A stretch of 64,000 nt of DNA from Alkalispirochaeta americana (GTDB lineage Bacteria > Spirochaetota > Spirochaetia > DSM-27196 > Alkalispirochaetaceae). A program made the translations under genes and the position numbers. Where the stretch lies: contig NZ_FTMS01000009.1 in assembly GCF_900156105.1 (NCBI RefSeq), forward strand, positions 62,001 through 126,000, written 5' to 3'. The number at the start of each line of letters is the position of its first letter. The stretch's first letter is position 1. The notes under the pieces are model-generated. The model saw only the letters and a program-made list of their open reading frames with translations. It did not search any database and had not been told where the DNA came from. Below, piece after piece: positions 30,591-33,591 of the stretch.

Positions 30591-30813
30591 ATCGGTGGTG
30601 CCTGGGTTCTCTCGCGAGTTCTCATCTGGCCGGCACCAAACCCCGCCGATATTACACCAGGAAGGAGGATGAATGGACAGCGATCCTTTACCGGATTTAA
30701 GGGATTTCACACATGCCCACACAACCATCCTCCAGCGTACCTGTCTTCCGAAAACCTCCCCGTAGGTATCTCCTGGACATGTACCCGCGAGGGTGATGAA
30801 CAAGGGGGTGCCC

Positions 30814-31497
30814 ATGGCACTACACATTTTCACAATACGAGTTATCTCAGCGCTCCTGCTGGGGATACTGATCGGCGCCGAGCGGCAATGGAGAAACCGC
30901 ACCGCAGGAATCCGGACCAATGGTCTGGTGGCAACAGGCTCAGCTCTTTTTGTCCTCCTGTCGGTGATGGTTGAAGGTGATACCAGCCCCACCCGGATAC
31001 CCGCCCAGATTGTTTCGGGAATCGGTTTCCTTGGTGCCGGGGTAATCTTCAAGGAAGGGTATTCCATCTCCGGACTGAACACCGCCGCAACGATCTGGTC
31101 CGCAGCAGCGATCGGCTCTTTGGCCGGCTTTGGCTTTCTGGCTCCGGCAGCTCTGGGGACTGCCGTAATTGTGGGGGTCAACACCGTCCTGCGCTTCTCC
31201 ATTGGGGCGAACGGAGCGAACGGAGCGAACCGGGAAGAACCATTTCTCGAGTATCAGCTCTCGGTTCTCTGTGGAGTCGCCGAAGAACCCCACATTCGAA
31301 GCGTGCTGCACGCCATGATGAGCGCCGAAGCGATCTCGCTCCGGGGAGTTTCCCGGGAAGAGTCGGATCAGGATGGCCGTATAGCTATTACAGCTCGTGT
31401 GATGATGAAGAGGAACGAGGCAGCAAAGCTGGAACAAATCATTTCCAGAATCGGTCTGGAGGAATCGGTGCAGGCGATCCACTGGGACGCCGCGTAA
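30814..31497 (+). CDS. mgtC: MgtC/SapB family membrane protein
   Basis: 227 residues from the ATG at 30814, with an AGGGGG SD 6 nt upstream; upstream GTG/ATG at 30793-30796 are less likely. Several membrane helices carry the MgtC signature blocks LLGILIGAERQWRNRTAGIRTN, SGIGFLGAGVIF and ISGLNTAATIWSAAAIG. A cytoplasmic ACT-like C-terminal domain follows. Between them sits GANGANGAN, encoded by three tandem 9-bp units. MgtC proteins modulate Mg2+ homeostasis and F-ATPase and do not usually transport Mg2+ themselves. The gene is the first after the M-box terminator and about 100 bp ahead of mgtE, so both are controlled by Mg2+. Confidence 0.9.
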   Translation: MALHIFTIRVISALLLGILIGAERQWRNRTAGIRTNGLVATGSALFVLLSVMVEGDTSPTRIPAQIVSGIGFLGAGVIFKEGYSISGLNTAATIWSAAAIGSLAGFGFLAPAALGTAVIVGVNTVLRFSIGANGANGANREEPFLEYQLSVLCGVAEEPHIRSVLHAMMSAEAISLRGVSREESDQDGRIAITARVMMKRNEAAKLEQIISRIGLEESVQAIHWDAA

Positions 31498-31598
31498 CCG
31501 AAAGCGCGATGGAGCGCTCACACCAGATTCACAACAAACCGCGTGCGGGAAACTGCTTCCACAGGAATGGAAGAACCGCCGAAAAAAGGGAGAAGAGA

Positions 31599-32981
31599 AT
31601 GAACATAACAGACAACTTTGCAGATTTTGCACATGACCACATAAAGTCCCAAAATCTTGAACCGCTGAAGGCAGAAATGCAGGGCATGACGCCTGCGGAA
31701 CTACTCTACGGACTCCAGGACTGTGAAGAACACGACCGGGCTGTGGTATTCAGGCTTCTCGACAAAAACGTGGCCATCGATGTTTTCGAAATGATGGACC
31801 CGGTGATGCAAAAAGACCTGGTGGTGTCCTTCACAAAGGAAGAAACACTCCAGCTTCTCACGGAGCTTGACCCCGACGATCAGGTTCGCTTTCTGGATGA
31901 GCTTCCGGCAAAAGTGGCCAAGCGGCTCATGGAAGGCCTTCCCAGGGAGCAGCGTCAGGCGGCATCGCAGCTAATGGGCTACGCCGATGGCACGGTGGGA
32001 CGAATCATGTCACCGGTCCATTTTCAGGTAACCAAAGCCATGACCGTGGAGGAAGCACTCAACAGACTGCGAATGAAGAAAAAAGAGATCGACTTTCCCG
32101 TGACCATGCTCTACGTGACCGATGAAACACGGCATATCGAGGGGATGATTCCTGTGAGCAGACTGGTGGTGGCAGACCCGGCCACAGAGATTTCCCAACT
32201 GCTGGGCAGCTACGATCTGGACGTGCTCAACACCAGCGATGACCAGGAGGATGCGGCCCGTTTTCTTCAACGGGCCGATGCGTTTGAACTCCCCGTGGTG
32301 GATCGGGAGAATCGTCTGGTAGGCGTTCTGACCGCCGATGACGCCATGGATGTTATCAGGGAAGAGACAACCGACGATATGTACGACAAGGTGGGATTGA
32401 TTGATATCACCAAGAGGGAATCGGACCGAAGCCATAACATGATCAACGGCAGTTTTGGCCACGTCCTGCGGGTCCGCCTGCCCTTTCTGCTCATAACCCT
32501 GGCCGGTGGAATGCTTGCCGGAGCGGTGATCGGGGTATTCGAAGAGCTTCTTGAGGCGGTGGCTGCCACGGCTATCTTCATCCCGGTCATCATGGATATG
32601 GGAGGGAACGTAGGGACTCAATCGTCCACGATCTTCACCCGTGGCCTGGTACTGGGACAGATCAGCATGGGGAACTTCTTCCGCCAGTGGCTGAAAGAGC
32701 TCAGAAACGGCGTGGGAATGGGCATCGCCCTGGGAATCTGCGGCGGGATCATCGCGGGTCTCTGGATGGGAATACCAGCCTTGGGAGTCGCCGTAGGCAT
32801 CTCGCTGGCCTTGACCATCTCAATTGCTGTGGGATTGGGCTTTATCGTTCCCTGGATCTTGGTGAAACTCGGCTTTGATCAGGCTGCAGGTGCAGACCCC
32901 ATCATCACCACGATCAAGGATGTCAGTGGACTGATGATCTACTTCACGGCCGTAACGATCTTCCTGCCCCAGGTTCTCTAG
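31599..32981 (+). CDS. mgtE: MgtE-type magnesium transporter
   Basis: 460 residues from the ATG at 31599, preceded by an AAGGGAGAAGAG SD. Domains: MgtE N-domain (about 15-125; LLTELDPDDQVRFLDELP), two CBS domains (about 130-255) and a five-helix channel domain with FIPVIMDMGGNVGTQSSTIFTRGLVLG, where the Asp/Asn-rich pore sequence binds Mg2+. It imports Mg2+ across the inner membrane; the N- and CBS domains close the pore at high Mg2+. Together with the upstream M-box, Mg2+ gates both synthesis and activity. A hairpin follows the stop. Confidence 0.94.
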   Translation: MNITDNFADFAHDHIKSQNLEPLKAEMQGMTPAELLYGLQDCEEHDRAVVFRLLDKNVAIDVFEMMDPVMQKDLVVSFTKEETLQLLTELDPDDQVRFLDELPAKVAKRLMEGLPREQRQAASQLMGYADGTVGRIMSPVHFQVTKAMTVEEALNRLRMKKKEIDFPVTMLYVTDETRHIEGMIPVSRLVVADPATEISQLLGSYDLDVLNTSDDQEDAARFLQRADAFELPVVDRENRLVGVLTADDAMDVIREETTDDMYDKVGLIDITKRESDRSHNMINGSFGHVLRVRLPFLLITLAGGMLAGAVIGVFEELLEAVAATAIFIPVIMDMGGNVGTQSSTIFTRGLVLGQISMGNFFRQWLKELRNGVGMGIALGICGGIIAGLWMGIPALGVAVGISLALTISIAVGLGFIVPWILVKLGFDQAAGADPIITTIKDVSGLMIYFTAVTIFLPQVL

Positions 32982-33016: not shown

Positions 33017-33043
33017 CCCGGGTGTCCCCTGTGGGCACCCGGG
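33017..33043. terminator. Hairpin between mgtE and the convergent outer-membrane protein gene
   Basis: CCCGGGTG and CACCCGGG form an 8-bp stem, extended inward by CCC/GGG past one bulge, loop CTGT. It lies 36 bp after mgtE and just after the end of the convergent gene. No T-run is present. Confidence 0.5.
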
Positions 33044-33046
33044 TCA

Positions 33047-33545
33047 CTACAGGCGGAATCCGGCGATGCAAAAGATCCGGATCACCGTTGCATCGATATC
33101 GACATCCAGGGTACTCCCTCCTGCCAGACCCTCGCTGAACCGGTTCTGACGGGAGATGAATCCCAGACCAAACCCGATGTCCAAAGGGGATAATCCCCGG
33201 TAGAGAATGTTCAGATATCCTCCTGCCTCGACAACGTAGCCCTCCATTGTGGTAGAGAGCGATCCTGCCTCGAAGGAAAGACGACTGTGACCGACCCCGA
33301 TAAAGGGAAGAACCTCGACAGCCACTTCGGGACGGTTCAGAATGGCCCAGGCAGAATCCCAGGAAGCACTGGAAGACCCCAAGTGGAAATCACCCACACC
33401 GGTAGACACCTTGGAGTTCAGGGAGTAATCCCGGCTCTCGGGACCGAGGATCAGGCGCAACGACCGGTATCCCGAGGTCTCACCAAACAATCCCCCCCCC
33501 ACAAATCAGGAGAAGGAACAAAACAGAACCTTTCCTGAAACTCAT
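33047..33545 (-). CDS. Small outer-membrane beta-barrel protein, out of frame through a G9 tract (probable phase-variable gene)
   Basis: Promoter, SD (GGAGGG) and ATG at 33545 are all present and open a signal peptide beginning MSFRKGSVLFLLLICGG. At the homopolymer of nine G (coding strand, 33492-33500) the frame breaks and meets a TGA at 33480-33482. Reading on in the next frame gives about 150 residues of alternating amphipathic strands ending in an aromatic/Leu terminus (IFCIAGFRL), as in small outer-membrane barrels. With eight G (or eleven) the whole would be one 165-residue protein. This is what a slipped-strand on/off switch looks like; a single-base sequencing error is the alternative. 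Family not identified beyond the barrel-like pattern. Confidence 0.72.
33492..33500 (-). repeat. Homopolymer G9 tract (coding strand) inside a signal-peptide coding region
   Basis: Nine consecutive C on the plus strand, bounded by T and A. It lies about 45 nt after the start codon of the outer-membrane protein gene; eight copies would restore the frame. Confidence 0.9.
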
Positions 33546-33562
33546 CGCGCCCTCCACCCTGA

Positions 33563-33591
33563 ATTATCGCTTTCTGGAAACAGCAATTCAA
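33563..33591 (-). promoter_or_regulatory. Promoter of the phase-variable outer-membrane protein gene
   Basis: On the minus strand TTGAAT (33591-33586), a 17-bp spacer and GATAAT (33568-33563). The SD GGAGGG (33555-33550) follows 7 bp later. An intact promoter argues that the frameshifted gene is still expressed. Confidence 0.62.

Follow-up and report, generated by a model that had tools for sequence, protein, structure and literature searches.

The locus analysed here raises the question of whether a run of nine guanines, located directly behind the signal-peptide-like start of a gene of Alkalispirochaeta americana, is a slipped-strand switch caught in its OFF phase, as a preliminary description had proposed, or whether the gene has been broken by a mutation with no such role. 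In one genome, a switch in its OFF phase cannot be told apart from a null allele of recent origin. The window, i.e. the whole 64-kb stretch of DNA that was analysed, was compared with the genomes of relatives. The nearest genome is that of Alkalispirochaeta alkalica DSM 8900, a member of the same genus, with a local DNA identity of 79-81% near the broken gene and a genome-wide ANI of 81.2% (PMC13286283). The named members of Alkalispirochaeta were isolated from alkaline lakes and insect guts (PMC13286283).

The gene is located on the minus strand. Its sigma-70-like promoter, TTGAAT-17-GATAAT (33563-33591; scan score 9/12), is formed by the hexamers TTGAAT at 33591-33586 and GATAAT at 33568-33563 and a 17-nt spacer, all of them free of poly-G. 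A Shine-Dalgarno region (GTGGAGGG, 33550-33557) and the ATG at 33545 follow, and the ATG opens 15 codons for a signal-peptide-like N terminus (MSFRKGSVLFLLLIC, 33501-33545). The G9 tract (33492-33500), at which the frame is broken, comes next. Beyond it the signal-peptide frame ends with a TGA at codon 22, while the 147-codon downstream frame (33047-33491), coding for a probable exported, possibly outer-membrane protein, is out of register with it across G9 and stays open until the TAG at 33047; the ORF called in this frame starts with a GTG at the tract edge and comprises 151 aa. The intact promoter, Shine-Dalgarno sequence and start codon, as well as the break after 15 codons, were thus found as previously described, and the arrangement is compatible with slippage. 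The broken gene is flanked by a convergent mgtE on one side and by a gene for an MBL-fold hydrolase on the other. Where the broken gene and mgtE converge, a strong hairpin (33017-33043, without strand assignment; -24.9 kcal/mol, z -2.4) was found between their ends, probably a terminator-like element. Besides, an MgtC-family gene was observed next to the gene for the MgtE magnesium transporter, directly downstream of the broken gene (window positions 30793-32981).

In A. alkalica a syntenic orthologue with an intact reading frame is present, in which the promoter with its 17-nt spacer, the Shine-Dalgarno sequence and the 17-nt gap to the ATG are kept. Judged by eye, the N termini of both species have the RK, the hydrophobic core and the Gly-rich end of a signal-peptide-like sequence, in line with the earlier reading. 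A. alkalica is the sole source of a homologue among the 60 relatives covered by protein search and the 394 genomes of the class covered by profile search (own genome counted); both searches found none in the other five Alkalispirochaeta genomes. Two class-level matches (E 0.006 and 0.05) were very weak and were rejected as homologues. By these sequence searches, the gene is specific to the Alkalispirochaeta lineage; it codes for a small, probably exported protein. In the A. alkalica assembly many isolated single N bases were noticed, so that the orthologue contains codons which could not be read.

For the protein, no match worth naming was obtained in Pfam, NCBIfam or PDB, and the Pfam search with the A. 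alkalica orthologue, extended up to E 10, was likewise empty; homology to OmpW or Tpr was found neither there nor in PDB. The C terminus carries an alternating hydrophobic stretch, and 9 and 11 amphipathic strand candidates were counted, with shuffle fractions of 0.09 and 0.14, which is not significant. Two AlphaFold models had pLDDT values of 24 and 29, too low for use. The barrel-like protein of the preliminary description was consequently not borne out by these analyses, and an outer-membrane barrel is a reasonable guess that is plausible from the sequence.

Over 142 codons behind the tract, the comparison of A. americana with A. alkalica gave a dN/dS of 0.176, with 24, 9 and 47 differences at the first, second and third codon positions. 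For the neighbouring genes of the same species pair, the values were 0.134 (MBL gene), to which that of the broken gene is similar, and 0.032 (MgtE). The low ratio indicates that the gene worked during most of the time since the two species diverged, and such purifying selection on the downstream frame implies that the break is recent, or that it is switchable and reversible, or that it is an error.

The error would consist in a miscalled homopolymer during sequencing or assembly, the real tract being in frame and the gene intact and expressed. G9 is the longest G/C run of the window and so belongs to the most error-prone type of site, and the downstream frame has no other stops and is under normal constraint, as expected of an intact gene. 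The remainder of the window argues against this. When the 64 kb were compared with the A. alkalica region, 12 frame-change pairs were obtained; three large ones besides the G9 site were checked closely and turned out to be antisense frames and a pair of neighbouring sulfate-permease-like genes, and the remaining pairs look like antisense or pre-start frames. The break at G9 is the only convincing coding frameshift found, so the assembly is not indel-rich. An error of this kind is regarded as unlikely, and as less likely than phase variation.

The tract itself differs between the two species. The glycine run of A. alkalica is spelled GGTGGAGGGGGG (GGT GGA GGG GGG), with six as its longest G run, and thus conservation does not extend to the unbroken slippery tract. 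As only a single relative has the gene, the conservation of the tract is decided by one lineage. To the explanation which we prefer, namely that a strand slip at a run of glycine codons of incidental origin has recently shifted the frame and made the allele of the sequenced clone null, we assign an even chance. The starting point would be a glycine-rich stretch in the signal peptide of a small exported, possibly outer-membrane protein, whose glycines are in A. americana almost all encoded by GGG codons and thereby form an unbroken poly-G run, mutable because it is long. A slip of replication at this run would throw the frame, and the ribosome would run out of the signal-peptide frame and terminate at codon 22, so that no exported product would be made in the sequenced clone. 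The run would owe its existence to coding and codon choice and would not have been selected as a switch. We infer slippage as the cause of the break, the loss of the product and the absence of selection for switching.

This null-allele explanation is also consistent with a second difference between the orthologues. The A. alkalica gene is longer by 141 nt (47 codons, in frame) than the A. americana copy, in which the junction was placed by alignment at 33340-33341 on the minus strand, and such a difference fits a gene tolerant of change or loss. As two sequences were compared, it is either a deletion in A. americana or an insertion in A. alkalica. A direct repeat of a simple kind that would account for it was not found, and when the 47 residues present only in A. 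alkalica were searched against the two genomes, no donor and no paralogous cassette turned up besides the gene itself. A likeness of the 47-codon segment to the next hairpin was discarded as an artefact, since the compared stretches overlapped.

With two lesions relative to A. alkalica, the frame break and the 141 nt, the gene could also be a decaying pseudogene that is being lost, in which the loss of 141 nt hit the fold first and the frameshift came later. That no homologue was found in the five remaining Alkalispirochaeta genomes would agree with a dispensable gene. However, the 141 nt keep the frame and may have been inserted in A. alkalica, further stops are missing and the dN/dS is 0.18, so that decay is considered improbable. 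Still less credit is given to the reading that the G run would make transcription or translation slip and so yield some full-length product despite the frame of the DNA. Polymerase can slip on long homopolymers, as reported for the poly(A) tracts of Buchnera (PMC2831843), but this precedent concerns A/T tracts, and the proposal is highly improbable here.

A counterweight to the null allele is the position of the tract right after codon 15 of a gene for an exported protein. The 5' end of the coding region of an exported protein is the classic site for a contingency tract. Selected phase variation, by which slipped-strand mispairing at the poly-G of the signal peptide would toggle translation of a surface protein, the sequenced clone being OFF, would in addition agree with the conserved promoter and Shine-Dalgarno sequence and with the downstream coding sequence held under selection. 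It could further draw on the poly-G length variation of Treponema pallidum (PMC7864442) and on the 5' homopolymer switches of swrA and inlA (PMC2831843). The interrupted tract of the only orthologue and the 47-codon difference, however, count against it, as does MutS, which is encoded in the A. americana genome and by which single-base loops are presumably repaired.

The distribution of long G runs also does not favour a switch. A run of nine G is by itself no more than chance would give: one was observed in the window while 4.4 were expected from dinucleotide shuffles, 93 of 100 of which held at least one G9 run, and tracts of at least nine G are hence rarer in the window than in the shuffles. 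In the whole A. americana genome there are 189 G8 positions and 23 distinct tracts of at least nine G, and in A. alkalica there are 43 such tracts; not one orthologous position is common to the two sets. Several of the A. americana tracts are situated within or next to genes for peptidyl-tRNA hydrolase, an NADH:quinone/Mrp (proton) antiporter subunit, a family 4 glycosyltransferase, phosphoglucose isomerase and histidine kinases, among them housekeeping genes, and this distribution is not what a maintained set of switches for surface genes would show. The lack of a common site, together with the interruption in A. alkalica, argues against a maintained switch. The preliminary description was borne out in part; the comparison of tract length in relatives that it had proposed led to the single interrupted run described above. 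Selected phase variation is retained as a doubtful second reading, and the full claim that a soda-lake spirochaete switches a surface protein via poly-G slippage in the signal peptide is held to be slightly more doubtful.

Some other G runs were noted in the course of the genome scans. In front of a long PAS/histidine-kinase ORF, 17 nt before its first start codon, a G10 run (G000:C15:86162-86171) adjoins an AGGAGAG sequence resembling a Shine-Dalgarno motif, where it might produce variants of leader length. A G9 run with the C strand coding (G000:C3:113643-113651) is found close to the N terminus, or just upstream of the true start, of a POTRA-domain (BamA/TamA-like) protein. In A. alkalica, a G13 run (G006:C35:169793-169805), the longest such run seen in the genome, occupies the gap between two genes that were named by eye as beta-ketoacyl-synthase-like and fumarase/aspartase-like. 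In two related genomes, contigs start with 50 G (G003:C6:1-50) and 21 G (G005:C11:1-21); both have the look of artefacts, from assembly or from sequencing, and they inflate poly-G counts.

The two main readings differ in what they would mean. A true switch would mean that an environmental spirochaete, too, phase-varies exported proteins through poly-G tracts, host immunity not being the driver, and would suggest that poly-G phase variation of spirochaetes is not confined to vertebrate pathogens. If there is no switch, the locus is a clear case in which one genome in the OFF phase is no evidence of switching: position and geometry fit, yet the relative lacks the long tract, and the turnover of such tracts between two species is complete.

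Among known systems, the poly-G tracts of T. pallidum are similar in several respects. Of 17 tested tracts of at least eight G, 76% were variable in length; some lie in ORFs near the start, as the tract at +56 in tp0969, and others are found near outer-membrane protein genes, namely tprE/G/J, tprL and tp0126, an OmpW homologue (PMC7864442). The A. americana run resembles them in being a spirochaetal poly-G of roughly 8-10 close to the 5' end of a gene whose product is probably exported. However, promoters are where the best-studied tracts of treponemes act, whereas here the run lies in the ORF and the promoter is free of a tract; moreover, A. americana belongs to another genus, its protein has no match to the OmpW family and the tract is known here from one genome. 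As the organism is an Alkalispirochaeta and not a treponeme, the precedent cited in the preliminary description gains no support from kinship. In Bacillus subtilis swrA, a length change of one unit between A8 and A9 near the start toggles the frame, and reversible switching was measured (PMC2831843). The alteration of the frame by one unit near the start is alike, although swrA is a swarming gene and does not encode an exported protein. In Listeria inlA, the 5' poly(A) occurs as A6/A7 or as A2GA4, of which the interrupted version is stable and the uninterrupted one slips (PMC2831843). Here as well a homopolymer near the start breaks a gene for a surface protein while another lineage has an interrupted version; unlike the G9 run of A. 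americana, the inlA tract is poly(A) and is backed by population data. Judged by analogy, Listeria inlA and the poly-G tracts of T. pallidum are the closest precedents for the broken gene.
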